In this document: positions 5,777 through 48,117 of the stretch, in pieces
How positions within the stretch are numbered: the stretch's first letter is position 1
How the letters are laid out: every line of letters starts with the position of its first letter
From: Candidatus Gastranaerophilales bacterium
Lineage (GTDB): Bacteria > Cyanobacteriota > Vampirovibrionia > Gastranaerophilales > Gastranaerophilaceae
DNA length: 64,000 bases
Direction: 5' to 3'
Assembly (NCBI GenBank): GCA_944325875.1
Contig: CALVBU010000002.1
Span: 124,001-188,000, forward strand
The notes under the pieces: model-generated
The model's input: the letters and a program-made list of their open reading frames with translations, nothing else
The model's database searches: none
What the model was told of the DNA's origin: nothing
Position numbers and translations under genes: made by a program

Positions 5777-6231
5777 ATCTTAAAATATTTCATCATTTTT
5801 TTCATCAATAAATCATTAGCCGCACCAGCTACTTGTTTAATATTAGGCTCAGCAAAAGTCTCCTTAATTTTAGTCAAAGTCTGCCCTACAAAAGAAAATA
5901 ATGGTAGAACTTTATCTGAATTAAGCTTTAACTCATAATGATTTAATGCAAAATCAATTTGTTTAGGCAATTTAAAAAAAGGAAAATCTGTCTCCATTAC
6001 ACGTATCATAAACGAATCAGGCTTAGCTTTTTTAGTACATTCAAAAGTATATGGACTCCCAGCTTTTTCTAAAAACTTTTGAAACTTTAATTTATCATCG
6101 CCAAATTCATCATTAGTAAGCTCCCCATAAAATGAATACAAATTAATGTCATATGGATGTTTTGGTGATGCCTTTGATTTTGTATGGGATACGCTTAAAT
6201 TTCTTATACCAGTAAAACTTATATTATTCAT
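5773..6231 (-). CDS. Uncharacterised protein with N-terminal ISFTG peptide
   Basis: 152 residues with no family I recognise. It has no signal peptide or membrane segment. Residues 2-7 read NNISFTG, a short N-terminal peptide also found near the start of unrelated proteins here (50126-52066 and 59349-60449). The rest is mixed charged sequence with a C-terminal MKKMMKYF helix. Its stop overlaps that of the convergent glycosidase gene. No Shine-Dalgarno sequence precedes the ATG. Confidence 0.6.
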   Translation of the reverse strand: MNNISFTGIRNLSVSHTKSKASPKHPYDINLYSFYGELTNDEFGDDKLKFQKFLEKAGSPYTFECTKKAKPDSFMIRVMETDFPFFKLPKQIDFALNHYELKLNSDKVLPLFSFVGQTLTKIKETFAEPNIKQVAGAANDLLMKKMMKYFKI

Positions 6232-32632: not shown

Positions 32633-33346
32633 ATGAAAAAATTTATAGCAACACTGTTAATAATTATGTTAGGAATAAGCGCTTACGCAGAAACTTGTAC
32701 TTGCGAAGATGAAATCATTGCAAGAGAGCATATGTTTTGCGAAAAATGCGCAGAATGTAATCAAGTATTAATAAAGAATTTAGAAAATGTAATTTGTAAA
32801 GGCAATGCCTTTAGAATTGTTTTTGATTGCAAATTTTGGTCAGAATGTTCAAAAGCAGGCGACAAAGTAAACTTCAGCGTACCTGAAGCAATCTATACAC
32901 AAGAAGGTACATTACTAATCCCTGCAGGTTCAAAACTTGTAGCAACAGTAATTAAGATTGAAAAACAAAGAGTTCCGAATAAAAATGCAAGGGTTTACCT
33001 AACATTTGACTGCCTAATGTTACCTGATGGAACCGCAATATCTATGAACGCAAGACCTTGTACTAAAGATTCTTCCCTAAAGGAAGGTCCTTGGCATACA
33101 GCAGGAAAACTTGCAGCTTGGACTTTAGGTCTTGGTATTGTTGGTGCAGGTGCCGGTACAGGTTTCGCATTCATCCCAAATCCAGCAAAGCTTGGTGTCG
33201 GTTATGCTATCGGTATTCCAGTCGGTACAACTGTCGGTTTAGTAACAGGACTTATAACTCCTGGTTTGAAATATCACGCAAAAGCAGGTGAATCAATTGT
33301 AATAATGCTTTGTGAAGACTTATGTATAAAAAAACAGTGTCAATAA
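32633..33346 (+). CDS. Exported Cys-rich protein with glycine-zipper segment
   Basis: 237 residues from ATG 32633, with signal peptide MKKFIATLLIIMLGISAYA. The N-terminal mature part is Cys-rich (ETCTCEDE, FCEKCAECN). The middle (VNFSVPEAIYTQEGTLLIPAGSKLVATVIKIEKQ) resembles beta-rich domains of TrbI/VirB10 and related envelope proteins. The C-terminal half has a Gly-rich glycine-zipper stretch (GLGIVGAGAGTGF to GIPVGTTVGLVTG) that could insert in a membrane. Function unknown. Confidence 0.7.
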   Translation: MKKFIATLLIIMLGISAYAETCTCEDEIIAREHMFCEKCAECNQVLIKNLENVICKGNAFRIVFDCKFWSECSKAGDKVNFSVPEAIYTQEGTLLIPAGSKLVATVIKIEKQRVPNKNARVYLTFDCLMLPDGTAISMNARPCTKDSSLKEGPWHTAGKLAAWTLGLGIVGAGAGTGFAFIPNPAKLGVGYAIGIPVGTTVGLVTGLITPGLKYHAKAGESIVIMLCEDLCIKKQCQ

Positions 33347-33352
33347 ACATCA

Positions 33353-33889
33353 TCATTGTATAAAATAGTTTTGTTTATGTAATTGTATAATATGCCCTTC
33401 AAGCTCTAGTAGTTTAGCTTTATTACAAATTCCGGCAGAAAATCCAGTTAAACTACCATTCGCACCAACAACTCTATGGCAGGGAATCATTATTAAAATA
33501 GGATTATGCGCAATAGCATTACCTACAGCTTGAGAAGACATTTTTTCTTTATTCAAATTTATGGTAACTTTTTTAGCGATTTCACCATAAGTTAAAATTT
33601 CACCGTATCGAATCTCAGTTAAAATTTGCCAAACTGTTCGCTGAAAATCACTACCTTGTGGAGCCAAATTTAATTCATCTAAACTTGGATTTTTTGCTAA
33701 AAAGTAATCGTCAAGCCATCCTCTTGCAAACCTTTGAATATCCAAGTCAGATTTTTCTATAATTTCTTCTTGCTGGAAATTTTCAGCAAAAAACTTTTGT
33801 CCCTCAAGTCCAACACCACGGATAGAATTCTTATCGCTTAATATAAACAACTTTCCTAAAGGACTAAGATAATTAGACGAATATAACAT
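33353..33889 (-). CDS. ogt: Methylated-DNA-protein cysteine methyltransferase (Ogt/MGMT)
   Basis: 178 residues. The active-site motif is IMIPCHRVVGANGSLTGFSAG with the alkyl-accepting cysteine. The helix-turn-helix region FQRTVWQILTEIRYGEILTYGEIAKK with the arginine finger is intact. The protein directly repairs O6-alkylguanine and is used once. It is convergent with the Cys-rich gene and followed upstream on minus by a small His-rich gene. Confidence 0.93.
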   Translation of the reverse strand: MLYSSNYLSPLGKLFILSDKNSIRGVGLEGQKFFAENFQQEEIIEKSDLDIQRFARGWLDDYFLAKNPSLDELNLAPQGSDFQRTVWQILTEIRYGEILTYGEIAKKVTINLNKEKMSSQAVGNAIAHNPILIMIPCHRVVGANGSLTGFSAGICNKAKLLELEGHIIQLHKQNYFIQ

Positions 33890-33895
33890 TAAACA

Positions 33896-34156
33896 TTAAT
33901 CCCAGAATTTAAAAAATCTATGATGTTTAGGAGCCGGTTTATGCTTAGGCGGTTTCTTATGATGACATTTTTTCTTATGTTCACAATGACCTAAATGACG
34001 ACCATTATCATGCTGAGCATCACCGCTGCGGAATTCAATTTCCGTATTATTTCGTCTTAGCCCAAACCAAGTAAAAGAACCATCATGAGCATAAACTGCA
34101 GAAAAAGATGATGCTATAGTAATACAAACAATTATACCAAGTAATTTTTTTAACAT
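33896..34156 (-). CDS. Small exported His-rich protein
   Basis: 86 residues. The signal peptide covers about residues 1-23 (MLKKLLGIIVCITIASSFSAVYA). The mature part holds ten histidines and two cysteines, concentrated in CEHKKKCHHKKPPKHKP and PKHHRFF, suggesting metal binding outside the cytoplasm. No family recognised. GGAGGG lies before the start, and a consensus promoter is upstream. It probably shares its transcript with ogt, 6 nt away. Confidence 0.7.
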   Translation of the reverse strand: MLKKLLGIIVCITIASSFSAVYAHDGSFTWFGLRRNNTEIEFRSGDAQHDNGRHLGHCEHKKKCHHKKPPKHKPAPKHHRFFKFWD

Positions 34157-34181
34157 ATGCCCTCCAACTTTTTAAACATAG

Positions 34182-34211
34182 ATTATCGCATTATGTTTAT
34201 ATATATGTCAA
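34182..34211 (-). promoter_or_regulatory. Promoter of the His-rich gene and ogt
   Basis: On the minus strand -35 TTGACA (34206-34211) and -10 GATAAT (34182-34187) are 18 bp apart, followed by a leader with a GGAGGG site. Confidence 0.65.
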
Positions 34212-34257
34212 GTTAAAATCTATAATCGTAAATTTTCTATAAGAATAAAACGCAAAA

Positions 34258-34278
34258 TGCCACGGATTTGCCACGGAT
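34258..34278. repeat. Tandem TGCCACGGAT repeat
   Basis: Two exact 10-bp copies separated by one T. The GC content stands out from the surroundings. No third copy was noticed in the window. Confidence 0.6.
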
Positions 34279-34309
34279 CAAAAATTTCGACCAAAAATTT
34301 ACATTAAAA

Positions 34310-34329
34310 AAGCGGGCTCAAACCCGCTT
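34310..34329. terminator. Orphan terminator hairpin
   Basis: AAGCGGG pairs with CCCGCTT around CTCAAA. A run-up of A on the left and T-rich sequence on the right allow either direction, but no nearby gene ends here. Confidence 0.5.
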
Positions 34330-34588
34330 ATCTTTTAGATTTACGGTAGAAGGGTTGGTAGGAGAATTAAGTAGATAATTTTAATAATTTGTAAAATTGA
34401 AGTTTTTTATATTTTTTATTTTAAAGCTTAAACAGAATATGTGGGATTGACCGTCATTATTGATGTTTTAGGCTTTTTTTTATTGTGAAAATTTTCAGAC
34501 ATAGTTGCAATTAAGTTAAATTAAAAAAAAGTTTGAGTATAATAATACGACTAAAAATTTTTGTAAAGAAATTTGATAAGGTGAAACA

Positions 34589-34720
34589 ATGCATGAAACA
34601 AAGATCAAAAAAATATTTCAGGAATATACCAACAACAAGTTGGAAGCTAAAGATTGTAAAGAAATTGAGGAGAATCTTAAGGAATTTTTTTTAATTCTTT
34701 TGGAATGGAGTAAAAGATAG
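34589..34720 (+). CDS. Small acidic helical protein (43 aa)
   Basis: A 43-residue ORF, MHETKIKKIFQEY to FLILLEWSKR, with AAGGTG 6 nt before the ATG and a TATAAT box about 46 nt upstream. The translation reads as a regular amphipathic helix pair with an ordinary amino acid mix, unlike random AT-rich frames. It precedes the replication gene and probably belongs to the mobile element. Function unknown. Confidence 0.5.
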   Translation: MHETKIKKIFQEYTNNKLEAKDCKEIEENLKEFFLILLEWSKR

Positions 34721-34879
34721 GAGGTGATTTTATCTCATTATTAAAATTTTTACATATTTTGTAAATTATATTAAAAAAAACACAATTTTTTTTCGTTTTC
34801 ATACGAAAAAAAAGAGGTTTTACCTCTGTAAATGTACGATTTTTTATCCAAATTTTGTCAAGTAGGAAAGGAGATAAGA

Positions 34880-35557
34880 ATGTTAGAATTAGATAAAATA
34901 AAAACAAGTATTGATGATAGGTATTTTAAAAAAAACAAACAAGAAAATAAAGGCATGTATATTGGTTTTAATTATAACATTGCCGATAATAAATTGTATT
35001 TTGAAGTTTCTGGGAAGTTATTTTCAACACCTACATCTTTTGGGGCAATTACGAGTGAAAATATTTCAGATATACCAGAGAAGATTTACAATTTGTCTGG
35101 AATTCAAATTGATAAAGATTATTTAATAAAATGTGCTCCACTATATAGAATAGATATAAAAAAAGATATTTTAGTTGATGGTAATCCCGAAAATTATATT
35201 TCAGCATTACGAGAGATTCTAAAAGCAAAATCTGATAAGTTTGATGTCTACAAACATACAAATTTAAAGTATATTGACGGATTGTCGGTTCATTCTAAAA
35301 AATTAAGCGATAAAACAAGATATACAGCTTATATTAAGTGGAGAGAGGTTTGTAAAGATAAAAATTATAAAAATATGTTTGCCTATGATTTTATAGAAAA
35401 AGCAACAAATATTATTCGTTTTGAATGCCAAATTAGGCAGTATGCAAAAATAAGAGAAATTTTTGATATTAATAGAAGTTGTTCTCCGTCAATTCAGGAT
35501 ATTTTTACTTGTGGTCGAAATGTTATATCTGATTTATTTAAAGAACTAATAGTTTGA
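34880..35557 (+). CDS. Replication initiator-like protein (phage/plasmid gene II/X, CRI-like)
   Basis: 225 residues from ATG 34880, set by AAAGGAG 7 nt upstream. The layout fits filamentous phage or plasmid gene II/X initiators: an N-terminal beta segment NKLYFEVSGKLFSTP, then SGIQIDKDYLIKCAPLYRIDIKKDIL, and a late IIRFECQIRQYAKIREIFDI that matches the family's conserved (L/I)RxExxxR-(K/R)-I. These nick a plus-strand origin in rolling-circle replication. The match is from memory of the family, so function is probable rather than certain. It starts a four-gene + strand cluster. Confidence 0.55.
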   Translation: MLELDKIKTSIDDRYFKKNKQENKGMYIGFNYNIADNKLYFEVSGKLFSTPTSFGAITSENISDIPEKIYNLSGIQIDKDYLIKCAPLYRIDIKKDILVDGNPENYISALREILKAKSDKFDVYKHTNLKYIDGLSVHSKKLSDKTRYTAYIKWREVCKDKNYKNMFAYDFIEKATNIIRFECQIRQYAKIREIFDINRSCSPSIQDIFTCGRNVISDLFKELIV

Positions 35558-35573
35558 AGGAGGAAAAGTAGAA

Positions 35574-35819
35574 ATGAAAGTAGATAATTTAATCAAAATA
35601 ATGGGTAGGCTTAAGATATGTGAAGACAACAATTGGGATCTTGCAGATATAAGAATGTTTATAATGCGAGAGTGTAATTATGGCGGGGAATCCCAATTAT
35701 CTCGTCATATTTCAAAATTCAAAATATTTATGGAAAATCATATTCTAGAATTAAAAAAAGGAAATATTATTCATGAAATATTAAAAAAATTAGAGGAGGA
35801 AAATAATGATAAATATTAA
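35574..35819 (+). CDS. Small uncharacterised element protein (81 aa)
   Basis: 81 residues, probably all helical (LADIRMFIMRECNYGGESQLSRHISKFKIF). A GGAGGAAAAG site precedes the start. It lies between the initiator and the next gene, overlapping the latter by 14 nt, so it is in the same operon. No family recognised. Confidence 0.6.
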   Translation: MKVDNLIKIMGRLKICEDNNWDLADIRMFIMRECNYGGESQLSRHISKFKIFMENHILELKKGNIIHEILKKLEEENNDKY

Positions 35820-36471
35820 CATTTGGCAAACATTAAAAGAAGGTGGCTTTGTATTGGTACCATACACAATGTTAAAAGTATTAGGGCCTATAAATTCTGT
35901 TGTGCTTGGTGAAATTGTATCTGAGTTAAACCACGCGATAAAAAATCATTTAAGTTATAATCAGGATTTTTTAACTAACATTAATAGAATGGCTGATTTT
36001 TTAGGAATGCAATATGAAGAAGTAATTTCAGCTGTAAAAGAATTGCAGGAACAAGAATTAATTGCTGTATCAAATTCTTATATTAAAAATACCATATATA
36101 TGGTTGTGAATATAGATAAAATTCTTGAATTGCAGAAAAACATTATTACGGAGTACTTATTTTGTGGTTGGGATAGCGGATTGATGATGTGTCAAAATCC
36201 CACACATGAAAAAACATCTTTTACAAATTCTTTGAATAGAATAAAAATTTTTATTGAAGAAAATGCTAAGGATTTAAATCCTGTTCCAATGATAGTGTAT
36301 ATGCATTTGAATTCTATAATCAAAATTATAGAAAGAAAGCAAGAAAGAAGTATTTTTGAAGTTGACCCTTTTTTATATGAAAAAATAAAAGAACAGTTTT
36401 TAGAATTAAATGAAAATTCATATAATTTAATTTCACTCTTTTTGGATATACTATCTGCAATTCAACATTAA
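35806..36471 (+). CDS. Winged-helix-like element protein
   Basis: 221 residues. Residues about 15-95 look like a replication or plasmid-type winged helix: FVLVPYTMLKVLGPINSVVLGEIVSEL, then LTNINRMADFLGMQYEEVISAVKELQEQELIAV, a recognition-helix and wing pattern. The second half is helical with no known match. AGGAGG precedes its ATG, which lies inside the preceding gene. Likely a replication or copy control protein. Confidence 0.55.
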   Translation: MININIWQTLKEGGFVLVPYTMLKVLGPINSVVLGEIVSELNHAIKNHLSYNQDFLTNINRMADFLGMQYEEVISAVKELQEQELIAVSNSYIKNTIYMVVNIDKILELQKNIITEYLFCGWDSGLMMCQNPTHEKTSFTNSLNRIKIFIEENAKDLNPVPMIVYMHLNSIIKIIERKQERSIFEVDPFLYEKIKEQFLELNENSYNLISLFLDILSAIQH

Positions 36472-36679
36472 CGGCTTCCTAAAATAATAAAAAAAATAGT
36501 AAAAAAATATATTAAAATGGCTTAGAGTTGAGTTATATCAATAGTTTAGAGTGCCTTTGTTAATAATTATTGCTATTTATTTATTATTTTGTTGGACAAA
36601 ACGTAAATTTTTATAAATTAGTCGGTACAATAATATACTTCTTATAAATTAAAAGATCATAAAGATGAAAGGAGAAAAA

Positions 36680-37588
36680 ATGTCAAAAAGAATAGGCTTA
36701 TTTTCCGAAGAGCAATTCCGAGAAATACAAAAATGTAATCCTGATTATTTCTATAATGAGAAATCCAAAGAGCTTGCAAATAAAATTGAAAATATAAAAG
36801 GGCAAGAACTTGATGGTATTATAAAAATAGGAGAATATTTATGTGAATTTAAAAATACTTGTGGAGAAGCAGGACCAGAATATTACAATAAATTCTTAAG
36901 AAATCCAAAAGTTAAATTAGGGAAAACACAGGCAAAAAAATATATTGCGGTTTATAAATATTACTCCTCTCAAGTAATGGGTTGCCAGTCGACTGACATC
37001 CTTAAAAAGTTAGGTATTGAGAAAATCTATTTAATAATGCAAGTCGAAAACGCAGAAGTCCATAAGTATCTTATACAATATATTATTAAATGGAAAATAA
37101 ATGTAAAGATGATAAAGGTTATGATTAATCAACTGAATAATGGTAAAACATTAAAGGAAGTTTGTAATTGGCATTTAAAAATATGTCAGATGAAAAAAGG
37201 ACTTATTGAGATGGATTATTCAATTCTACCAGAGGAAAAACCAAAGGTAAATTATTATAAAATGTATCAAAAAATTCTTGTAAAAAGCGAAATTCTAGAA
37301 GAAGAGAACCAAAAACTAAGACAAAAAATAGCTTTATTAGAAAAGGGTGTAGTAATACCTAAAGGACTTTCAGACAAGCTACCAAAATATTTACAAGAAG
37401 CCCAAAAAAAATTCTTAGAAGTTAGTAATACATCTTCTTCGCTATCAACTGAAGATTTAAGAGAACAACAAATTTCTTTTTGGAGAAATGAAGTAAATAA
37501 TTTTGAACAGAAATATTTTAACAAAAAGGTTAATAAGAGGCTAAAAGAAAAACGGCTTTTAACGTCAGGAGAAAAATTAATTAATTAG
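36680..37588 (+). CDS. DUF3102-like coiled-coil protein of mobile elements
   Basis: 302 residues from ATG 36680, preceded by AAAGGAG; an ATG 15 nt upstream is less well placed. The N-terminal half resembles DUF3102: IIKIGEYLCEFKNTCG, then LGKTQAKKYIAVYKYY and LGIEKIYLIMQV, a pattern common in phage and plasmid proteins. A coiled coil follows (SEILEEENQKLRQKIALLEKG, about 205-225). The C-terminus is highly basic. It may be a partition or replication accessory protein. Confidence 0.5.
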   Translation: MSKRIGLFSEEQFREIQKCNPDYFYNEKSKELANKIENIKGQELDGIIKIGEYLCEFKNTCGEAGPEYYNKFLRNPKVKLGKTQAKKYIAVYKYYSSQVMGCQSTDILKKLGIEKIYLIMQVENAEVHKYLIQYIIKWKINVKMIKVMINQLNNGKTLKEVCNWHLKICQMKKGLIEMDYSILPEEKPKVNYYKMYQKILVKSEILEEENQKLRQKIALLEKGVVIPKGLSDKLPKYLQEAQKKFLEVSNTSSSLSTEDLREQQISFWRNEVNNFEQKYFNKKVNKRLKEKRLLTSGEKLIN

Positions 37589-37657
37589 TATAGAAGTGTT
37601 ATAAAAATTTTTATTACTGTGTTATTGCCAATTTATTTGAATAGATGTACATTTGAC

Positions 37658-37858
37658 ATGAATAATATTGTCATAAAATTAAATATAGATGCAGGTGGTA
37701 TTAATTTCGTGCTATTATTGTCGTTGTTCTTAGCAGAAACACAGAAAACAACCTGCAATAATGATTTATGCAATCAATATGACACAGAAATAAATAAAAT
37801 TATTTACAAATTATATGATTTAACTTCTGAAGAAGTAAATTATATTGAAAAGTGTTAA
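37658..37858 (+). pseudogene. C-terminal remnant of an adenine methyltransferase / type IIG restriction enzyme
   Basis: A 66-codon ORF (or longer from GTG 37619) whose end reads YDTEINKIIYKLYDLTSEEVNYIE. This matches the well-known tail of Eco57I/TaqI-like adenine methyltransferases and type IIG enzymes (D-x-x-I-(D/N)-x-x-(V/I)-Y-x-L-Y-x-L-(T)-x-E-E). No catalytic NPPY motif or SAM-binding domain exists upstream in this frame, so most of the enzyme is missing. It sits 16 nt before a nuclease-like gene, as expected for a decayed restriction-modification pair. Confidence 0.5.
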
Positions 37859-37874
37859 AGGATAATATTCCCAA

Positions 37875-39293
37875 ATGCCAAATATTATACAACGAATTGA
37901 ACAAATATTAAAAGAAAAAGAACCTTTATCTTTAGAAACTTTAATTGATGAAATTAAGTCTATTGCATATATACAGGATAAAGTTGTTCTTGATGAAAAA
38001 CGAATTAAAAATCAGATTTTATTAATGTTACAGAAAAATAAAATATTGAAAGATTTTGAAAATCTATTGTACCTAAATACTCCTCAAAATATGTTTAAAA
38101 TACATAAACAATCTGGCATAACAATAAAACATTATTCTTCTAATCAAGAAATAACATTAGGCTCGCCAGGCATGAAACTATCTGCAGGTATGGTTATGAC
38201 ATTTGGAGATTATAAAATTATTGAAAATAATCCAGATTCATATTTTATGGTTTTAGATGTAGATTTGCCACTTAGATTAGAGGTAAATGAGCAATTACAT
38301 AATCCATATGTAATTAAAATAGGTAATAAGAATTATAATCTTTTTCATAAAATAAAAAAAAGAGGAGAGGAGAATTTTTCTTGTTTAGATACAAATTACT
38401 TACCATACTTTTCTTCATTACAGATTTCTGCACCTACAAACAAAGAATTACTAGAATTAGATAAAGTTCAATTGTTATATGACATATTAAAAAAAATAAA
38501 TAATGTAATAAATAATAAAATATTGGAGCAATGTATAAATTATAAAATCAATTTACCTTTTACATATGCCTATATAGATCCAAAACAACATAAAATAACC
38601 CCAATAACAAATACTATTGTTTTTTTAACAACGGATGTAGAAATTTTAGGGAAAAATATTACAAATGAATATCCAAGAGAAGAATTACGGAAATTACTTA
38701 ATTCGGAGAAAATTGTCTTACAAAATAAAATCGAAGATAATATAACCGAGTATAATTCAATTTATGATTTTAGTGGAAAAATTTTTCGTTTAACACATGA
38801 TTTCTCATTTTATATCAGACAAACTCCAGAAATTTTTAATAATATGAATGAAGAATTTATAAGGGATGTTTATTTATTTTGTACAAGAGTAGGAACAGAG
38901 TATACATGTGAAGCAGAAGCTTTTAATTATGATGGTAAATCTGATTTTAAAATTATATCAAATAATAAATATGAGTATATAATAGGAGAATTCAAATGGT
39001 GGACTGGTGACAAATCTATAGAAGAACTTTGTAACCAAGGCTTAGAAAAACATGTAACTGGCCAAGAAAAAGATATTTATTTGATAATGTTAAGTAGAAA
39101 TAATACAATAAATATTCCGAAAGAAAAATCTTTGAATTATATTCGTAGTAGATCTGAAATTTTAGAAGAATGTCACGATAATGTATTACCAGAAGGTTCA
39201 AAAGAGTGTTTTTATAAATTTAAAGCTAAAATAAAAAATAATGATGTAAATGTTATTTTTGCAATTATTGATTTGCACTATAAAAGAATCTAA
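37875..39293 (+). CDS. Candidate PD-(D/E)XK nuclease with N-terminal HTH
   Basis: 472 residues. The first 65 residues (IIQRIEQILKEKEPLSLETLIDEIKS to NLLYLN) look like a HARE/winged-helix DNA-binding module found on restriction enzymes. The C-terminal third has a candidate nuclease core: E346/E348 in CEAEAF, D357 in GKSDF, and E372-F-K374 in IIGEFKWW, that is E...D...ExK with usual spacing. The long middle part is unassigned. It follows the tail of a methyltransferase-like gene, so a restriction or defence role is likely, but no homology search was run. Confidence 0.55.
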   Translation: MPNIIQRIEQILKEKEPLSLETLIDEIKSIAYIQDKVVLDEKRIKNQILLMLQKNKILKDFENLLYLNTPQNMFKIHKQSGITIKHYSSNQEITLGSPGMKLSAGMVMTFGDYKIIENNPDSYFMVLDVDLPLRLEVNEQLHNPYVIKIGNKNYNLFHKIKKRGEENFSCLDTNYLPYFSSLQISAPTNKELLELDKVQLLYDILKKINNVINNKILEQCINYKINLPFTYAYIDPKQHKITPITNTIVFLTTDVEILGKNITNEYPREELRKLLNSEKIVLQNKIEDNITEYNSIYDFSGKIFRLTHDFSFYIRQTPEIFNNMNEEFIRDVYLFCTRVGTEYTCEAEAFNYDGKSDFKIISNNKYEYIIGEFKWWTGDKSIEELCNQGLEKHVTGQEKDIYLIMLSRNNTINIPKEKSLNYIRSRSEILEECHDNVLPEGSKECFYKFKAKIKNNDVNVIFAIIDLHYKRI

Positions 39294-39411
39294 AGTATAT
39301 TTATTACTTAATTTTGTGCTAAATTAGTCTAACTAATTAATTCCCCTAATTATAGTGCCAGTTTTCAGTTAGTAATGGAAACCATTAATTCTAATGTATA
39401 TTATATCTTTA

Positions 39412-39423
39412 AAACGACCGTTT
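39412..39423. promoter_or_regulatory. Palindrome AAACGACCGTTT, candidate recombination site
   Basis: A 5-bp inverted repeat around a 2-bp AC centre, the geometry of serine-recombinase crossover sites, 122 bp before the resolvase gene. The 39294-39544 gap holds no gene. Confidence 0.3.
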
Positions 39424-39544
39424 AAATTTTCGTCATCTATATATTGGAAATGGGTGACTTTTTGTTGATAGGATTGGAAAATAAAAATATAAAAATTACG
39501 TTTTTTCGATAGGGATAAACATTGTAACAACAGAAAGGGCGAAA

Positions 39545-40147
39545 ATGACCACATATGCATATCTACGTGTAAGTACGTTAGAGCAAAATACTGACAAAAA
39601 CAAACTGGAAGTTTTAAAGTTTGCAAACGATAAAAAACTTGGAAATATTGAATTTATAGAAGAACAGGTTAGTGGGAAAGCAAACTTTAAAGACCGACAA
39701 CTCGGTACATTATTAGAAAAAATGGGAAACGAGGATATTTTAATTGTCTCTGAACTTTCAAGAATTGCACGCTCAATCACACAAATATTTGAAGTAATAG
39801 ACATAACCAAGCGTAAGGGGATTACTCTGTATTCCATTAAAGAAGGTTTTTCAAATAATGATAAAAGTATTACTTCAACAGTAACGACTACAATATTTGC
39901 ACTTGTCGCGCAGATTGAAAGAGATTTAATTAGTTTGCGAACAATTGAAGCATTGCAATCAAAAAAAGCTCAAGGTATAAAACTTGGTAGACCAAAAGGC
40001 AAAGGTAAATCAAAGCTTGATAAAAATAGAGAAGAAATCCTTAAATTAATTGAGTTAAAAGTGCCAAAAACAATTATTGCAAAGCAATACAACACTTCAA
40101 CTGCAAATTTATACAGATTTATGAAACCTAATCAAAAATCAACTTAA
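39545..40147 (+). CDS. Small serine recombinase (resolvase/invertase)
   Basis: 200 residues. The catalytic serine S10 lies in YAYLRVSTLEQ, followed by EDILIVSELSRIARS with the active-site arginines. The E-helix TVTTTIFALVAQIERDLISLRT leads to a C-terminal HTH (EEILKLIELKVPKTIIAKQYNTSTANLYRFM). Length and domains fit Tn3-type resolvases or invertases. GAAAGGGCG precedes the start. It is followed by a large serine recombinase after 61 nt. Confidence 0.88.
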   Translation: MTTYAYLRVSTLEQNTDKNKLEVLKFANDKKLGNIEFIEEQVSGKANFKDRQLGTLLEKMGNEDILIVSELSRIARSITQIFEVIDITKRKGITLYSIKEGFSNNDKSITSTVTTTIFALVAQIERDLISLRTIEALQSKKAQGIKLGRPKGKGKSKLDKNREEILKLIELKVPKTIIAKQYNTSTANLYRFMKPNQKST

Positions 40148-40208
40148 ATAAAATAAAAATAAATTAGTATAATAATAAGACAAAAAAATTAATAGAGAGG
40201 ATTGAATA

Positions 40209-41717
40209 ATGGTTGTAATAAAAACTAAAGCAGTTTCTTATGCAAGAGTATCAAGTGCAGAGCAAGAAAAAGAAGGATTTTCTATTTCAGCTCAACAAGA
40301 TTTATTAAGAAGTTATGCGGAAAAAAATAATATACAAATTGTAAAAGAATTTTCAGAAGCTGAAACTGCCAAAGATGTTGGTAGACGTAAATTTAAGGAA
40401 ATGTTGCAATATCTTAAAAATAATAAAGATGTTACTACGATTTTAGTTGAAAAGACAGATAGGTTGTATCGTAATTTTAAAGATTATGTAGAATTAGATG
40501 TAGAAAAAACTGGATATACAGTTTGTTTAGTAAAAGAAGGTACAATTTTAACCGCAAATTCTACATCTCATGAGAAACTTACACATGGTTTTAAAGTTTT
40601 GATAGCAAAAAATTTTATAGATAATCTTACAGAAGAAACTCAAAAAGGTAGATTAAAGAAAGTTCAAGAAGGTTATTTTATATCTTATGTCCCATACGGC
40701 TATAAAAAATTAAATAAAAAAGATACTGAATTACATCCACAAAAATCAAAGTTTGTAAAAAGAGCATTTGAATTATATGCACAGGGGGATATATCTCTTA
40801 AAAATCTTACACAAAAATTATTTGATGAGGGGTTTATATATACACAAAGCAACCCTAAAATATCAACGGGTCATCTTGGGAAAATACTGTCAAATGAAAG
40901 CTATATTGGTTATATAAGACATTGTGGTAAATTATACAAGGGTAAACATCCTTCAATAGTATCAAAACAGTTATTTATGAAAGTCCAAAAAGCATTTAAA
41001 AAAGATGGTAAACCTGATACAAGAAATGGACATAGATTTTTATATAAAGGTTTATTAAAATGCGAAGAATGCGGGTGTGCAATTACATCTGAAATAAAAA
41101 AAGATAAGTGGATTTATTACCATTGTACTGGCAATTCAAAAACACAATGTTCACAAAAGAAAAACTATATTAAACAGGAAGAATTAGATTTACAGATTGA
41201 TGAAGCTATCAAACGTGTAGTAATAGATGATGAACTTGCGGATTATATCAATGCAATTCTTGAAGATAGTTATAAGGAAATGCAGCTTAATACAAAAGAA
41301 AAATACAATTATATAACAGCAGAGATTAAAAGAGCACAATCCCGTAAAGATAAATTACTCGAAATCTACATGGAAGGTGATATTCAAAAAGATGTATGGA
41401 CGAAAAAAACAATAGACATAGATACGCAGTTGAAGCAGTTAGAAAAACAACTTGAAATAATAAATTTGTCTGGAAAACAATTTATCAATGAGGGTACAAA
41501 TATTATTGAAGTCGCAAAGCAGACATATAACTTGTATAAACAGCAGACAACAGAAGAAAAACGTAGGTTGTTAAATATCATATTTGAAAATATTACTGTT
41601 AAAGATAGAGTTATACATTATACATATAGGAAACCATTTTGTTACTTTGCTCAATGTGATTTGAATGATTTAAATGGTATTGAGAGTTATATAAAACAAA
41701 ATATTACTAATCATTAA
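40209..41717 (+). CDS. Large serine recombinase (element integrase)
   Basis: 502 residues. The resolvase catalytic domain has S15 in YARVSSAEQEKEG; a recombinase domain (GYFISYVPYGYKK to GHLGKILSNESYIGYI) and a zinc-ribbon (CEECGCAITSE then YYHCTGNSKTQC, about residues 283-316) follow, then a coiled coil (about 365-425). This is the architecture of phage and ICE integrases acting between attP and attB. AGAGAGG precedes the ATG. Its stop overlaps a frameshifted minus-strand gene. It likely moved this element or one part of it. Confidence 0.9.
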   Translation: MVVIKTKAVSYARVSSAEQEKEGFSISAQQDLLRSYAEKNNIQIVKEFSEAETAKDVGRRKFKEMLQYLKNNKDVTTILVEKTDRLYRNFKDYVELDVEKTGYTVCLVKEGTILTANSTSHEKLTHGFKVLIAKNFIDNLTEETQKGRLKKVQEGYFISYVPYGYKKLNKKDTELHPQKSKFVKRAFELYAQGDISLKNLTQKLFDEGFIYTQSNPKISTGHLGKILSNESYIGYIRHCGKLYKGKHPSIVSKQLFMKVQKAFKKDGKPDTRNGHRFLYKGLLKCEECGCAITSEIKKDKWIYYHCTGNSKTQCSQKKNYIKQEELDLQIDEAIKRVVIDDELADYINAILEDSYKEMQLNTKEKYNYITAEIKRAQSRKDKLLEIYMEGDIQKDVWTKKTIDIDTQLKQLEKQLEIINLSGKQFINEGTNIIEVAKQTYNLYKQQTTEEKRRLLNIIFENITVKDRVIHYTYRKPFCYFAQCDLNDLNGIESYIKQNITNH

Positions 41718-42098
41718 ATTGCTTTAAAAAATCAGTAACTTCAGTTGGAATATCGTTTTTATTGAATGCTTGTGCAATATAATGATTAGAAAATGATATT
41801 TTGTAGGTTTCTTGTAAATATTTTCTTAGTTCTCTCAAAATAGTTTTGCCTGGTGCAAATAAAAGTTTTTGTTCTATTGTATTCCAATTATTATTTATAA
41901 TTTCACGAGCTTTTTATTTGCAGTTGAAACTTCATAATTGTTATTAGCTTGTTTTATTTGTGTTGATAAATTATCAAATATATCAGGTTTCAAATTTTCT
42001 AATATTTTATTGAGAATATCTATTAGTTGAAGTTTAGTACTACAAATTATATCCGACACAAAAATTACTTGATTATTTTTTAGCAAATAACTCTGCAT
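41707..42098 (-). pseudogene. Frameshifted gene of unknown family
   Basis: The minus strand encodes MQSYLLKNNQVIFVSDII... up to STANKK, then a one-base shift in an A run near 41913 breaks the frame. Continuing in the new frame gives AREIINNNWNTIEQKLLFAPGK through VTDFLKQFND and stop TAG at 41707-41709, for about 130 residues in total. Both halves have normal amino acid usage, so this was one protein. The stop overlaps the integrase stop. The family is not recognised. A + strand tail in the same DNA (ending 42136) is an alternative reading of its first part. Confidence 0.5.
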
Positions 42099-42172
42099 TA
42101 TTAGACGAAATTATTGATAACTACTGTGAAAATTAAAAGATCAATTGAATAGAATAATCTTTGCTCCTTTAT

Positions 42173-42203
42173 AAGAGGGGAATTTATCCCTCTTATTTTT
42201 TAT
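42173..42203 (+). terminator. Rho-independent terminator
   Basis: TAAGAGGG pairs with CCCTCTTA around an 8-nt loop, followed by a T-rich tail. It lies downstream of the integrase region on the + strand. From here to 42570 there is no gene, only AT-rich DNA and one TGTCTTACATTTT repeat. Confidence 0.7.
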
Positions 42204-42502
42204 TTTTAAACACTGGTAATTTGTAAGGGATTGAACATCAAATAAAAGCTAAATTGACTATAAATAAAAGGTAAGTCAAAACGCTTAAAAAAGCAGTAAA
42301 TGCTTGCTTATACCAGTATTTAACTGTTTAAGATTAAAAAAAAGAATCCTAAAATTGAAAAAATTAATTAAAAAATTAAAGTTTAAACCCGCTTTGGAAC
42401 AGTTGTACATACAAATGTTGAAGTAAAATTATTGTTTACAAAATTGCGGAAAATATCTTAAATTTGTTAGACACTGAAAAATTAAGACCTATAAACAGAT
42501 AT

Positions 42503-42515
42503 TGTCTTACATTTT
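42503..42515 (+). repeat. Third copy of the TGTCTTACATTTT recombination-site half
   Basis: TGTCTTACATTTT is identical to the outer end of the left inverted repeat (43156-43168) and in the same orientation. A partial second arm, TATTTTGTAA, follows at 42529-42538. The two direct copies flank the tyrosine recombinase gene. Confidence 0.6.
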
Positions 42516-42570
42516 CATTTATATCCTTTATTTTGTAATTTTAAATTAAAACAAAAAGGAGGACTAAGAA

Positions 42571-43113
42571 ATGTCAACAGTAGAACCAATTAGAAATAAA
42601 AAAGATATTCAAAAAGTTGAGAAAATTCTCGCAAAACAATGCAAACGTGATTTGTTATTGTTTACTATTGGAACAAACTGCGGACTTAGGATATCGGATA
42701 TTTTGAGATTAAATGTTGCGGATGTGAGAAACAAAACACACATACAACTAATAGAAAAGAAAACAGGTAAGTATAAAAAATTTCCTATAAATATAAAATT
42801 AAAGCCATTACTTGAAGATTTTATTACTGGCAGAAAAAATGATGAACCATTGTTTTTATCTCGTTGGGGGCACAGACTTGACAGAGTAACCGCATATTAT
42901 ATTATTCGAAATGCCTGCGAGCAAGCAAAACTACATGAAAAAATCGGTACTCATTCTATGAGAAAATCTTTTGGTTATCACCATTATCAGCAGTTTAAAG
43001 ATATTGTTATCTTACAGAAAATTTTTAATCATTCAAGCCCGCAAATTACATTAAGATATATAGGTATTGAGCAGGACGAAATAGATTCTTCATATAATAA
43101 TTTTGTATTATAA
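42571..43113 (+). CDS. Compact tyrosine recombinase (FimB/FimE-size)
   Basis: 180 residues, catalytic domain only. All active-site residues are present: R40 in GLRISD, K64 in IEKKTGK, H128-x-x-R131 in THSMRKSFG, H154 in FNHSS, and nucleophile Y163 in TLRYIG. It lacks the N-terminal core-binding domain of XerC/D or phage integrases, like FimB/FimE of phase-variable fimbriae. AAGGAGG precedes the ATG. Matching inverted repeats 44-235 bp downstream are likely its substrate. Confidence 0.88.
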   Translation: MSTVEPIRNKKDIQKVEKILAKQCKRDLLLFTIGTNCGLRISDILRLNVADVRNKTHIQLIEKKTGKYKKFPINIKLKPLLEDFITGRKNDEPLFLSRWGHRLDRVTAYYIIRNACEQAKLHEKIGTHSMRKSFGYHHYQQFKDIVILQKIFNHSSPQITLRYIGIEQDEIDSSYNNFVL

Positions 43114-43138
43114 GCTTGTCTTCCTTTAATATCAGTCA

Positions 43139-43154
43139 ATGACATACATTTTGA
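43139..43154 (+). repeat. Degenerate extra half-site next to the left inverted repeat
   Basis: ATGACATACATTTTGA matches the adjoining ATGTCTTACATTTTAA at 13 of 16 positions, in direct tandem. It may be an accessory binding site for the recombinase. Confidence 0.4.
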
Positions 43155-43156
43155 AT

Positions 43157-43183
43157 GTCTTACATTTTAACTATTTTGTAAGA
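43157..43183 (+). repeat. Left 27-bp inverted repeat (IRL) of a putative invertible segment
   Basis: GTCTTACATTTTAACTATTT followed by TGTAAGA is the exact reverse complement of 43322-43348. Each repeat is itself a palindrome of TCTTACA and TGTAAGA arms around a 12-bp asymmetric centre, the layout of a tyrosine-recombinase core site. Confidence 0.8.
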
Positions 43184-43321
43184 TGAATTTCTAAAAACCA
43201 CTGCATTCATAGTATCACAAATAATATCTGCTTGCAAAAAATTATAAAAAATGTAAAGTGTTATTAATTTTTAAAAGGATTTTATCTTCGAAAATCAAGT
43301 ATATCAAGGCTTCAATAAATG
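43184..43321. mobile_element. Putative invertible promoter segment (138 bp)
   Basis: This AT-rich segment holds no ORF but has a near-consensus promoter on the minus strand (43209-43237). It is bounded by 27-bp perfect inverted repeats and adjoins a compact tyrosine recombinase. Inversion would turn the promoter toward the + strand genes beginning at 43405. As sequenced it points the other way. Confidence 0.65.
43209..43237 (-). promoter_or_regulatory. Promoter inside the invertible segment, currently facing left
   Basis: On the minus strand -35 TTGCAA (43232-43237), a 17-bp spacer, and an extended -10 TGATACTAT (hexamer 43209-43214). Transcription would run leftward through the left repeat and antisense to the recombinase 3' end. 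Confidence 0.65.
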
Positions 43322-43348
43322 TCTTACAAAATAGTTAAAATGTAAGAC
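43322..43348 (-). repeat. Right 27-bp inverted repeat (IRR) of a putative invertible segment
   Basis: TCTTACAAAATAGTTAAAAT followed by GTAAGAC is the exact reverse complement of 43157-43183. It ends 56 bp before the downstream ATG at 43405. Confidence 0.8.
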
Positions 43349-43404
43349 GTTTTTTAAATAACCATAAAATGAAACTGTAAATATAAGGAAATAATACTGC
43401 AGTT

Positions 43405-44058
43405 ATGGTTTTATTAAGTGATTTTGATAAGGTATTAGAGGAAAATTTATTTAATCCAATTTCAGAAGATATTAACTGTCGTTACAACTCATGGGAACAC
43501 TGTTATGCTTTTTTCTATAAAAATAAAGAAAAGATAATATGTGATGATATGCTGGATACAGCAGCATTAAATCTTGGGTTCTACCTTGGAAATTGGGGAA
43601 TGTTTAGAAAATCATTCTTAATGAACAAAGATTATAAAATTCATGTTCATGTTATTAAAAGATTGCTTAGCGAGTGTAAAGAATTATGGCAGCCCTATGA
43701 TAAAATTTCGTGGAATGATATACAAAAGGCAAATGATATTATTAATGAGGGTTATAAAGATATCTGCAAATCCAAAAGAGTTTCAAAAATTTTAATTTCA
43801 AAGATTTTATTAGGTATTTTTGCCTGTGTTCCTGCGTATGATCGATACTTTGTGCTTGCTGCAAAAAATAGCAATGGGCTTATTTATCATAACTATTCTG
43901 AACAAAGTTATAATGATGTAAAAAAGGTTCTTTCTACTCTTAGTTATGAAAACAATAGGCATTTATATGATGATAAACAGATAACTTATCCACCAATGAG
44001 ATTGCTTGACGCATATTTTTGGTTTAAGGGCAAGGAACTTGATAATAGAGCCAAATAA
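43405..44058 (+). CDS. SWEHCY / GCVPAYDRYF-type uncharacterised protein
   Basis: 217 residues. The motifs YNSWEHCYAFFYKN, ALNLGFYLGNWGMFRKSFLMNKDYKIHVHVI, and ILLGIFACVPAYDRYF match what I remember of a widespread family without a known function, found sporadically in bacteria, often in accessory DNA. It has no signal peptide. It is the first gene after the putative invertible promoter, with only a weak ribosome-binding site. It could be switched on and off with the following secreted and membrane genes. Confidence 0.65.
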   Translation: MVLLSDFDKVLEENLFNPISEDINCRYNSWEHCYAFFYKNKEKIICDDMLDTAALNLGFYLGNWGMFRKSFLMNKDYKIHVHVIKRLLSECKELWQPYDKISWNDIQKANDIINEGYKDICKSKRVSKILISKILLGIFACVPAYDRYFVLAAKNSNGLIYHNYSEQSYNDVKKVLSTLSYENNRHLYDDKQITYPPMRLLDAYFWFKGKELDNRAK

Positions 44059-44097
44059 CAGATTTCAGGTGATACTAAAAAAGAATGGAGTGATTTA

Positions 44098-46179
44098 ATG
44101 AAGAAAATATTATTATCAATAATATTATGTTTTTTGTTAGTAAACCCGACTTTATCTTCTGCATTGACAACAAATGAATTTGGGTTTGGCATTTCTTTAA
44201 ATCGAGTTGGCGATGATGTTATAATAGAAAATGTTATATCTAATTCAATTGCAGATAAGTTAGGTTTAAAAAATGGGCAAAAAATTATTAAATTTAACGG
44301 AAAAAAAATCAATAAAGTTAAAAATTCAGATATTGAAAATATTAACAGTAAATATAAATCATTAAAAATTACAACTTTTGATAATAAACAATACAAATTA
44401 AAATCCGAAGATATTTCATTATTAAATTCGTATAACCAAATTCAAGAAACTTATAACCAGAATACAAAATATAAAGTTACTCCGTATAAAACTGAAAAAA
44501 TTATCTTAGCTAATGATATTGAAAACAAACATGCTAAGTATGCAAATGCATATTTAAACTATGCTGATGCTATTGCAATTGAGAATTCAAAACTTTATGT
44601 TGATTTATTTAAAGTAACTGATGAAAATATAAAAATAGCACTAGAAAAAACTAAAAATAATGAGATTAATCCATATTCAGAACTATACAATTCAATTTAT
44701 CGGACAAATAAAACGTATGATATATATGGAGAAGCTTTTAAACAATTTCTAGAACTTTCTATATATAATGATGTAAATATTGACTTAATCCATAGGCAAA
44801 TATCAGAATTTAATGAACAGCAAAAAAAACAATTTGCGCAATTTGCTTATAATACTAGGATTGTAGCAAATCTATATAGTTATACGAATCGTGAGCTTAG
44901 TACGTATTTATTAAAACATACTATTAATGCAAACAAAACAGATATTTGGCAAAATGAACTTAAAGTAGAAAATAATATATATAATATAAAATACAAAGAA
45001 CTATGTAATCTTATTGCAACTTATAAAATAGAAATTAAAAAACCGGGTCCACTATCTAATCGTGAACAAATTACAGCAGGTATTGTTCCAAATTCAAAAT
45101 GGGTAGACGACAAGCAAATTATAGTACTTGCACAGGAAAAAGGTTATAATCCAAATAAGTCTCTAGATTTTGCAAGATTAAACACAAATAACCATACACA
45201 ATATACTTCTTTAAAACAATTAAATAATTATAAAGTACAAATACCCCTCAGTTTAGTTTATTCTTTGCCAGAAGGTGTTAAACAAATTGGATCTGAGGGT
45301 ACAGTAAGTAAGCCTAACGAATTTACTTCTATTATTCTTTTAGTTCAGAAAAGCATTATTTGTAATGCTAAAGGAGATATAAATAATGCTATTATAAATT
45401 TAAATAATGCTTTTTCAATTCTTGAAAAGAATGGATATACTCCTACCTCAAAGCACACATCAGATACAATGAAGGATTTATATTTATATAGAGCATATTT
45501 ATACCTTAAATCGGGTAATGAAAATTATTTATATGAAATATGCCAAAATATATATTATGCTTTATCTTTTTATAATGCTCTACCTTCTCGTAATATGTTT
45601 TATTCATCTAATTTACACAGTAAAGAATTTTTGCATAACGGTATTTCAGCTTATGAGCAACGTAATTTGATTTATGAAATATTAGATGATAAAAATATTT
45701 CATCTTATACAAAGCACGAAGTATACAGATATATTATTTCAATTCTAAACACTGAAGTTGGTACTTATATAACATTACCTGCTATAGCAAGTTATATTGA
45801 ATATATATATAGCCTTGATGATTCAGATCCGTTATTTACAGAACTGAGGAAAAATAAAACACAAATTTTAAATTCTTATATCTCAACACTTAGGGGTTCA
45901 TATGCTCTAATTTCAAAAGGAATTTTAATCATGGCAAGTGGACAGTTCAATGAAGGATGTAATATAGTATATAATGGATTTAAAGGACTAAATTTAGATG
46001 AAAGAGAATATGCTTCTTATTTAATTCATTATTCGTTATTTATATTAAGAACATACGATTTAAATTATTTAAATTTACCTAATGCTGTGAAACTTAATGA
46101 TCCTAAAATCGAACTATTAGAATCTTACCGAAATTTAATTTATAAACATCACAGAGAATTTCAAATGATTAGGAGATAA
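44098..46179 (+). CDS. Exported PDZ-domain protein (693 aa)
   Basis: Signal peptide MKKILLSIILCFLLVNPTLS to about residue 24. Residues about 25-105 form a PDZ domain: FGFGISLNRVGDDVIIENV, then SIADKLGLKNGQKIIKFNGKKI, which places the ligand-binding loop and the typical GL-x-x-G-D-x-I motif. The remainder (105-693) is helical with TPR-like stretches (SIICNAKGDINNAIINLNNAF), and has no protease motif. It probably works as an envelope scaffold. GGAGTG precedes the ATG; the next gene starts 2 nt after its stop. Confidence 0.7.
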   Translation: MKKILLSIILCFLLVNPTLSSALTTNEFGFGISLNRVGDDVIIENVISNSIADKLGLKNGQKIIKFNGKKINKVKNSDIENINSKYKSLKITTFDNKQYKLKSEDISLLNSYNQIQETYNQNTKYKVTPYKTEKIILANDIENKHAKYANAYLNYADAIAIENSKLYVDLFKVTDENIKIALEKTKNNEINPYSELYNSIYRTNKTYDIYGEAFKQFLELSIYNDVNIDLIHRQISEFNEQQKKQFAQFAYNTRIVANLYSYTNRELSTYLLKHTINANKTDIWQNELKVENNIYNIKYKELCNLIATYKIEIKKPGPLSNREQITAGIVPNSKWVDDKQIIVLAQEKGYNPNKSLDFARLNTNNHTQYTSLKQLNNYKVQIPLSLVYSLPEGVKQIGSEGTVSKPNEFTSIILLVQKSIICNAKGDINNAIINLNNAFSILEKNGYTPTSKHTSDTMKDLYLYRAYLYLKSGNENYLYEICQNIYYALSFYNALPSRNMFYSSNLHSKEFLHNGISAYEQRNLIYEILDDKNISSYTKHEVYRYIISILNTEVGTYITLPAIASYIEYIYSLDDSDPLFTELRKNKTQILNSYISTLRGSYALISKGILIMASGQFNEGCNIVYNGFKGLNLDEREYASYLIHYSLFILRTYDLNYLNLPNAVKLNDPKIELLESYRNLIYKHHREFQMIRR

Positions 46180-46181
46180 TT

Positions 46182-46838
46182 ATGAAAATAGATATTAAAA
46201 TAGTTATAGGTTTGATTTTATTATTTTTAATAACCATTTTCGGATTACTATATACAAAAGAAACAAAAACAGTACTAAATAATAAAGTGCAAGAAAATAC
46301 AAATAAAAATATACCGAATATACCTCTGCAAATAAATAACACTACATTAAGTTGTGAATCCGATGAAACAAAAAGTGTTGTAATAAATATATTTCAGGAA
46401 AATGATAATTATTACAAGTATATTGATGAAAACTCTATCGCAGCCCTGAACTTAAAATATCCTGCAGCAGAAAATTATGATAGTAATATAGATAGGTATG
46501 AATGTACTGGCAAAATAGTTATGAATGCAAAAGGATTGGGTTTTCTTCCTTCCGAGCAGAATTATAATAATAATTATTATAATACAGTTCGTAGTTATTC
46601 TGAATATTTGAAAGGCTATGATACATATGAAATAGATGTAAGATATAGTGTACAAATGTCAGAAGGCAGTTTACTTGTAAAAGTTTCAAGTTACGATTTA
46701 CAATACAACGGCAAATTAAGTTGCAAAAAAACATCTTGTAATGGAATAATTGACAAAAAAGTATACGCTCAGAAACAACAACGAGAAAAAAGAATGCAAT
46801 TAAAAAAAGAAAGTGAAACAATGGTATTACCAGAATAA
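46182..46838 (+). CDS. Membrane-anchored uncharacterised protein
   Basis: 218 residues. One N-terminal membrane helix (IVIGLILLFLITIFGLLYT, about residues 6-25) is followed by an extracytoplasmic domain rich in Asn and Tyr, with four cysteines (SCESDE, YECTGK, SCKKTSC) that could form disulfides. The C-terminus is charged. It starts 2 nt after the PDZ gene stop, so the two are coupled. No family recognised. Confidence 0.65.
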   Translation: MKIDIKIVIGLILLFLITIFGLLYTKETKTVLNNKVQENTNKNIPNIPLQINNTTLSCESDETKSVVINIFQENDNYYKYIDENSIAALNLKYPAAENYDSNIDRYECTGKIVMNAKGLGFLPSEQNYNNNYYNTVRSYSEYLKGYDTYEIDVRYSVQMSEGSLLVKVSSYDLQYNGKLSCKKTSCNGIIDKKVYAQKQQREKRMQLKKESETMVLPE

Positions 46839-46898
46839 TTCAAAAACAATACACAAAATATTAACAGTTCAAATTAAAAATAATAGCAGGTTTATTTA

Positions 46899-47579
46899 AT
46901 GTGTGAAAAATTTTTAAAAGAAAATCAAAAATTTTGTAGCCAACCTGGGAGCAAAATTAATTCAAAAATTATAATAATCATATCTATAATATTTGGAATT
47001 GCTTTGATAACCATCGCGATTTTGAAACTAAACAGCCCTAAAAACCTAGAAATTGAAACAAAACAGAAGCAAGTAATCAAAACACCTGTACAAACTTTAC
47101 AGTAGATTGATGAACTGCAGGCAAAATATTTTAATGTTATAAAAAGAAATGATGTTTTGCTTCAAATACAGGACAGCGATGAGTATCAACAGGACATGAA
47201 AGACTTAAATAATCTTTTCAAGGAAGTTGAACAGAAAATAGATAAAAACAACTATTACCTGTAAAAATATTATAAAATTAAAGAGCAGTATGCCGTCAAT
47301 ACAGGAACATCACAAAGCGATATGAATATATTTGCGTCAAATGAATATAAAGCAGTTGACGGATTATTAAACGAAACATACCAAGCAGTAAAAGTAAAAA
47401 TTTCGCCAGATGATTTTAAACAACTAATAACAAGCGAATTAAAATGGCTTAAAGAGGTTGAAGATTATTATAAAGTATATGAACAGCAGGGATTTTGTAC
47501 AATCGGTTCACTTGTCCATTCAGAATATGAATGCAACATGAGAAACTTTAGAACATTGCTTTTAATGCTTTATTTTTAA
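46899..47579 (+). pseudogene. Zinc-ribbon/TM/LprI-like gene with two in-frame stops
   Basis: One reading frame of 226 codons is interrupted by TAG (47103-47105) and TAA (47262-47264). It reads a degraded zinc ribbon (CEKFLKENQKFCSQPGSKI), a membrane helix (IIIIISIIFGIALITIAIL), a coiled-coil stretch (IDELQAKYFNVIKRNDVLL), and a C-terminal LprI/DUF1311-like domain (YKAVDGLLNETYQAVKVKI, ELKWLKEVEDYYKVYEQQGFC). Both stops can come from glutamine codons by a single C-to-T change. The second ribbon cysteine is lost, consistent with decay. Confidence 0.65.
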
Positions 47580-47621
47580 TCATCGAATGCTTATTCAAGT
47601 AGATTGTCAATATTATTTATA

Positions 47622-47760
47622 AATACATCTAAAGATAAATATTTTGCACAAGCTAATATCTCTTTAAAATTACTCGCTCAACAGTTTTATAACGAGGAAT
47701 TTATATATATTAAGTCATACCAAAATATCATCAGGTCAGTTAGAAAAAATGCTTAAAAAG
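47622..47760 (+). pseudogene. Fragment of a second large serine recombinase
   Basis: The + strand reads KYFAQANISLKLLAQQFYNEEFIYIKS, which parallels LYAQGDISLKNLTQKLFDEGFIYTQS in the integrase at 40209-41717. After a frameshift the reading TKISSGQLEKMLKK parallels PKISTGHLGKILSNES. Only this part of the recombinase domain remains. It is diverged from the intact integrase, so it marks an older element rather than a recent copy. Confidence 0.6.
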
Positions 47761-47906
47761 TGTTTTATTAACAAAATCTTAAAACAAACTTAATTTTAAT
47801 CGAACTCGTGGAAATGTACTAAATATAATACATTCTACGGGTTTTATTGTATTTAAAAAAAATATTAAAAAAATCTTTAATCGAACTTGTCAAAGCCAAT
47901 AAAAAT

Positions 47907-47928
47907 GAGGGTTTGAAGCATATCAACC
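47907..47928 (-). terminator. Terminator of tRNA-Arg
   Basis: On the minus strand GAGGGTT pairs with AACCCTC, followed by ATTTTTATT, about 15 nt after the tRNA 3' end. Confidence 0.6.
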
Positions 47929-47946
47929 CTCTATTTTATGAAAAAA

Positions 47947-48020
<74 letters not shown>

Positions 48021-48117
48021 CTGTCAGAGGAACTTTCCAGACGTTTGGTTTCTGTGGGGTATCTGTATTCATCCCTCATTGATTTTATATTAACATAAAC
48101 ATTTTCTTTTGCAATAT

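Follow-up and report, generated by a model that had tools for sequence, protein, structure and literature searches.

A 66-codon open frame on the forward strand, running from an ATG at 37658 to a stop codon at 37858, is, judged by its sequence, an orphaned type IIG C-terminus that has lost the rest of the enzyme. The fragment is very probably a non-functional relic: the type IIG gene has kept its constant 3' tail but neither catalytic body nor specificity domain, and what is left is most likely untranslated. The window analyzed is the whole stretch of 64,000 nucleotides, part of contig C2 of genome G000 (2.2 Mb), and the description covers this one genome. The longest mechanical frame for the ORF starts at a GTG at 37619 and has 79 codons. 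The methyltransferase tail string named in the preliminary description is present in the 66-codon ORF, and the last 43 codons (37727-37855) correspond to the C-terminal end of type IIG restriction-methyltransferases. The features are as follows.

36665-37588, forward strand: element backbone gene on the 5' side of the relic (307 aa), with no methyltransferase match
37592-37726, forward strand: in-frame DNA 5' of the relic, neither type IIG-like nor coding-like by coding score and shuffle test
37658-37858, forward strand: 66-codon ORF, an open frame (79 codons from the alternative GTG at 37619)
37727-37858, forward strand: type IIG C-terminal tail, the probable relic, 43 codons and stop, by DNA alignment, profile match and coding score
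37858-37862, forward strand: AAGGA, probably the site where ribosomes bind for the nuclease gene; its first base is the last base of the relic's stop codon
37875-39293, forward strand: PDC-S54-like protein, probably a PD-(D/E)XK nuclease, 472 aa, phage-defence candidate (PADLOC PDC-S54, E 1.6e-13)
39407-40147, forward strand: serine resolvase (39545-40147, PF00239) and its upstream DNA, a 3' flank common with the G278 type IIG locus
40209-41717, forward strand: large serine recombinase (PF00239, PF07508)

Homology of the fragment to type IIG enzymes

The PADLOC type IIG model PDLC03612 matches the ORF at the end of the model (positions 1218-1245 of 1247, E 3.7e-4), and PDLC03609 (E 0.0022) and PDLC03629 (E 0.012) match it at their extreme C-termini. 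A tail profile was built from 12 C-termini of other genomes with the window sequence left out, and a search of the window's genome with this independent profile returned the relic at 37748-37852 with E 2.5e-12. These matches bear out the proposal that the fragment is an orphan type IIG C-terminus. No match up to E 1 was found for the ORF in Pfam, NCBIfam, or PHROGs. When the 66 residues were searched against 288 genomes of the family, the best non-self match (E 8.4e-9) fell at the end of a G097 frame of 1150 codons. The protein encoded there (1141 aa) is the closest full-length relative, with 48% identity over 46 residues, and is type IIG by PDLC03612 (E 3.2e-208) with an Eco57I methylase match (5e-27). 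At the DNA level, positions 37727-37851 of the window are collinear with the G097 gene over about 125 bases. In G097 (locus L060), an ApeA / PDC-S58-like HEPN gene comes after the type IIG gene, and a nearby opposite-strand gene of 134 aa has a start that looks TIR-like by eye.

The body of the enzyme is missing. No adenine methyltransferase domain was matched in the fragment or in the upstream gene, and the 36665 protein has no methyltransferase match in Pfam, PADLOC, NCBIfam, or PHROGs; a search of the window's genome with PDLC03612 at E <= 1e-5 gave contig C5 only. The first observation that no catalytic domain lies upstream was thus correct. The tail profile found no second, inverted copy of the tail near the relic in the window's genome. 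A search of the 288 genomes with the junction DNA gave, besides the window itself, matches under about 100 bases that were taken as chance, and a 32-base exact piece of the tail was absent from viral contigs. The tail profile and a nuclease profile gave nothing credible against solved structures.

Edge of the tail and neighbouring genes

Similarity to type IIG genes stops 5' of 37727, and a break in the coding score coincides with this start of DNA homology. The codon score was trained on 42 ORFs of the window. The tail has no internal stop and gene-like codon use, with a score of 0.188, compared with a median of 0.221 and a 5% point of about 0 for 352 real 43-codon stretches. The 45 codons 5' of the tail score -0.107, which is below that 5% point and falls between the median (-0.234) and the 95% point (-0.02) of random stop-free stretches. 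The frame is open for these approximately 45 codons, for which the chance is about 0.026. Similarity of the upstream 45 residues to the pre-tail region of type IIG enzymes was equalled by 186 of 1000 shuffles, and no specificity domain was found there. A decayed specificity domain in the 135 bases upstream, suggested by a gapped BLAST extension, was rejected as the shuffle test did not support it.

Pairwise comparison of seven intact type IIG genes, with aligned pieces under 50 bases dropped, gave a pattern of body, unalignable stretch, and 3' tail in 20 of the 21 pairs; the remaining pair is alike throughout. The unalignable stretch is about 0.7 to 1.6 kb long in the 20 pairs, and the conserved tail starts 124 to 358 bases before the stop codon. 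The relic is this constant 3' block. As its signature consists of the constant tail only, its apparent breakpoint coincides with the point where conservation starts between intact genes, and the homology start would look identical with a diverged specificity domain 5' of it. Both the codon score and the short space of 138 bases between the stop codon of the 36665 gene and the tail start argue against such a domain.

The gene 3' of the relic encodes a protein whose PDC-S54 match covers residues 302-430, with a weak, below-cut-off match to Pfam PDDEXK_9 (E 0.041). Residues D357, E372, and K374 are invariant across three aligned sequences, and we take them to be the catalytic set of the PD-(D/E)XK fold. 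The PDC-S54 match together with these residues indicates that the protein is probably a PD-(D/E)XK nuclease and a candidate for anti-phage defence; its predicted structure (mean pLDDT 57.4) was too poor for use. The nuclease is rare: relatives occur in 6 of the 288 family genomes, its own included, and two of these are weak. The three nearer relatives are in G049, G012, and G056 (the last cut by a contig end), and none of these genomes has a tail-profile match at E <= 0.01. In the 6-kb flanks of two of them (L085 and L086), no type IIG gene was seen when the ORF lists were read. An intact type IIG gene with PDC-S54 was not found in the 288 family and 241 order genomes (overlapping samples), in a single scan each of GTDB contigs and viral contigs, or in plasmids and phages, where the nuclease gave a single partial match, on a Rhizobium plasmid. 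The full-length gene followed by a homologue of the 37875 gene, which the preliminary description had proposed to look for in relatives, was thus not found in the searched collections, and its view of the neighbour as the remainder of the lost system was not borne out. The nuclease as restriction partner of the lost enzyme was rejected, with no supporting locus in the genomes, contigs, plasmids, or phages searched. As the genomes of its nearer relatives lack the tail, the nuclease is probably not a partner of the lost type IIG enzyme. The name PDC-S54 was not found in the papers searched, and searches on PDC-S54, Gastranaerophilales restriction-modification, and defence-island remnants yielded no account of such tails. 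Part of an 1858-codon frame with one stop (G020:C89:8390-8554; L008/L089) resembles residues 101-155 of the nuclease over about 55 residues.

The relic sits in an integrated element, with backbone genes on one side and a module of cargo and recombinases on the other. The backbone genes at 34832, 35574, and 35806 occupy 34832-36471, and the product of 35806 is weakly like phage replication initiation proteins. Relatives of the three genes occur in the same order in G260, with a partial relative of 36665 nearby; behind them in that genome come an 838-aa gene, which partly matches type II restriction enzyme and PDC-S02 models, and a second gene without a match. The 36665 protein has weak, partial relatives in 4 other genomes of the 288. 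On the 3' side, the flank at 39407-40147 is 80% identical over 155 bp, in front of the window's resolvase, to locus L067 in G278, and the large serine recombinase is 43% identical over 477 aa to that of L149 in G256. In G278, the type IIG gene is split over two frames of 617 and 395 aa and is for this reason apparently interrupted; behind it come a 206-aa gene without a match and the resolvase-flank DNA. The type IIG gene of G256 (1073 aa) has two small genes and then a large serine recombinase behind it. The relic thus marks a joint between element backbone on the left and, on the right, the type of cargo-recombinase module found behind type IIG genes. The order of type IIG gene, cargo, and recombinase in G278 and G256 supports the reading as a relic. 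Against it count the difference in models, as PDLC03609 is nearest to the G278 and G256 type IIG genes and PDLC03612 to the G097 gene, and the lack of an intact locus with type IIG gene and PDC-S54. The open upstream frame, the tail free of stops, and its gene-like codon use also count against it; the last two would fit a recent loss but also a kept peptide.

No exact repeats of at least 15 bases join 33300-34900 to 39200-48200. The region from about 34200 to 41800 is a variable integration site beside the gene at 33353-33889, which is presumably a methylated-DNA-cysteine methyltransferase gene. At this site, G198 (same genus) has other genes and, at some distance, a large serine recombinase related to the window's (47.5%), and G158 has different content again. 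Further along the window (42571-43351), the two arms of a perfect 27-base inverted repeat, at 43157-43183 and 43322-43348, lie behind a short tyrosine recombinase gene. They enclose 138 bases ahead of the gene at 43405, and the arrangement looks like a promoter switch that can invert. In L064, a related recombinase is arranged in the same way, with 26-base arms (96%) and 133 bases between them.

Orphan tails in other genomes and the constant tail

At E <= 0.01, the tail profile gave 78 matches in 69 of the 288 genomes, of which 12 by hand count lie in frames under 100 codons. Three of these short-frame matches (G275:C77, G117:C90, and G166:C177) start less than 125 bases from the end of their contig and one is unconvincing (G046:C7, E 0.0072); these were left out. 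The eight convincing orphan tails are those of the window, G046:C36 (425 bases from the contig end), G037, G194, G078, G032, G075, and G018, the last matching only 15 positions (E 3.7e-4). The eight differ in frame, length, and neighbours, and the seven outside the window show stops, frame changes, or other lengths. A same-strand defence-candidate gene lies 3' of the tail in four of the eight, namely, PDC-S54 in the window, SIR2 in G046, PDC-M46A/B in G032, and a broken SIR2 gene in G037, with 81% DNA identity to an intact locus. The gene 3' of the G078 tail matches MzaA through sigma-70 domains, and since an ordinary sigma factor would match the same domains, it is doubtful as a fifth defence case. 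The other three tails are followed by a 101-aa gene without a family (G018), an opposite-strand gene (G075), and a contig end (G194).

A trio of loci is mosaic around the tail. L061 (G080) and L074 (G038) are both type IIG by PDLC03596 and are 96-97% identical in the body and 93% over 117 bases in the tail; they differ in the specificity region 5' of the tail and in the cargo 3' of it (ThsA-like SIR2 and PDC-S50, respectively). The orphan L078 is 86% identical to L074 through the specificity domain and tail, and 85% identical to L061 from the tail through the SIR2 cargo. It thus combines an L074-like specificity domain with L061-like cargo, which places the joint in or near the tail in this trio. 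Type I and III genes are known to exchange specificity domains that lie between conserved flanks, according to the accessible text of two papers (PMC3983042; PMC3077401). We infer from these few loci that the tail also borders exchanged cargo; its constancy could alternatively reflect selection on the protein. A wider interpretation, in which the type IIG 3' tail is a homology arm exchanging the upstream specificity domain and the downstream defence cargo, and in which the orphan tails and the window relic are scars of cassette turnover, is offered tentatively and is on balance unlikely.

Origin of the probable relic and comparison with known systems

Recombination or deletion ending at the 5' edge of the tail would produce a scar like that in the window, and such an event is the probable origin of the window scar. 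Because the tail is a constant block between differing specificity regions and cargo, an event at its 5' edge would leave exactly this scar. The tail likely stayed because it adjoins the cargo gene; the last base of its stop codon is also part of the nuclease gene's probable ribosome-binding site.

A special case of this explanation is deletion in place, in which a full type IIG gene stood here in an operon with the same nuclease and lost nothing but its body. Between the relic and the nuclease gene there are 16 bases, and the gap from intact type IIG gene to cargo is 8 bases in L061 and 2 in L149. Type IIG gene and cargo are followed by related recombinase DNA in G278 and G256, and in L078 the body was lost and the tail and SIR2 cargo were kept. 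On the other hand, G049, G012, and G056 have the nuclease relative without a tail match at E <= 0.01, the backbone genes on the 5' side lead into another gene pair in G260, and tail and cargo may have come together, already truncated. Deletion in place is a serious possibility, somewhat short of probable. Of the earlier proposal that a deletion removed the body, the missing body stood and the deletion in place is possible only, as loss in place and arrival of a truncated tail with the cargo would look alike in these data.

The 66 codons could also have been kept as a small protein, an option raised at the outset, or as a translated leader that promotes translation of the nuclease gene. The open frame, the gene-like tail score, and the stop codon that touches the probable ribosome site of the nuclease are consistent with this. 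However, the upstream half is not coding-like, the seven other convincing orphan tails are broken, frame-changed, or of different length, and the nuclease relative in L085 has no such leader in front of it in the ORF list. The best Shine-Dalgarno match at any in-frame start of the ORF is 4 bases, at a GTG at 37709, although this is weak evidence because 8 of the 42 large ORFs of the window have no match at their longest-frame start and 10 have only 3 bases. A small protein or leader is therefore improbable, and a conserved stand-alone protein was rejected, since the remaining orphan tails are either broken or unlike in length, frame, and context.

It is very improbable that the relic is what is left of an invertible specificity cassette. 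In L064 (G270:C31), 308-base inverted repeats (4114-4421 and 5544-5851, 91%) suggest probable phase-variable specificity: a 293-aa cassette faces a full type IIG gene beside a serine recombinase, to which the window's resolvase is 40% identical. Among the 25 longest of 62 inverted repeats at 34000-44500, however, just one touches the relic; its 29 bases at 76% are unconvincing because this is the usual chance level in the AT-rich DNA here, and no specificity domain was found 5' of the relic. Chance resemblance to a short motif, with which the lack of Pfam, NCBIfam, and PHROGs matches would agree, is refuted by the independent profile match and the collinear DNA.

The relic as read here shares with type IIG enzymes (Eco57I / TaqI_C class; PADLOC REase_MTase_IIG, best PDLC03612) a homologous C-terminal tail, and as in type IIG genes, the tail stands at the gene end with another gene close behind. 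Unlike in these enzymes, the search in front of it gave no methyltransferase, endonuclease, or specificity domain. Its relation to PDC-S54, the PADLOC-DB candidate matched by the 37875 protein, is one of adjacency only. Truncated type III and type IIG genes are described as decayed restriction-modification in H. pylori in the accessible text of PMC3983042, and the likeness, on that text, is a truncated gene remaining in the genome; the relic is likewise a piece of a longer gene whose remainder is missing. The window differs in that only the 3' constant tail is kept, by an intact defence candidate, in an integrated element. With Domain Movement in type I and III genes, as given in the accessible parts of PMC3983042 and PMC3077401, the likeness is a variable specificity domain between conserved flanks, whereas the genes here are type IIG, the 3' flank also borders differing cargo, and the window holds a scar only. 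A function of the scar itself is unlikely. The place where a restriction enzyme was lost can be revealed by a 3' tail that is short and highly conserved, and such tails hint at exchange points in defence islands. The relic is ordinary, and of mild interest is the recurrence of orphan tails, several beside defence genes, in related bacteria.
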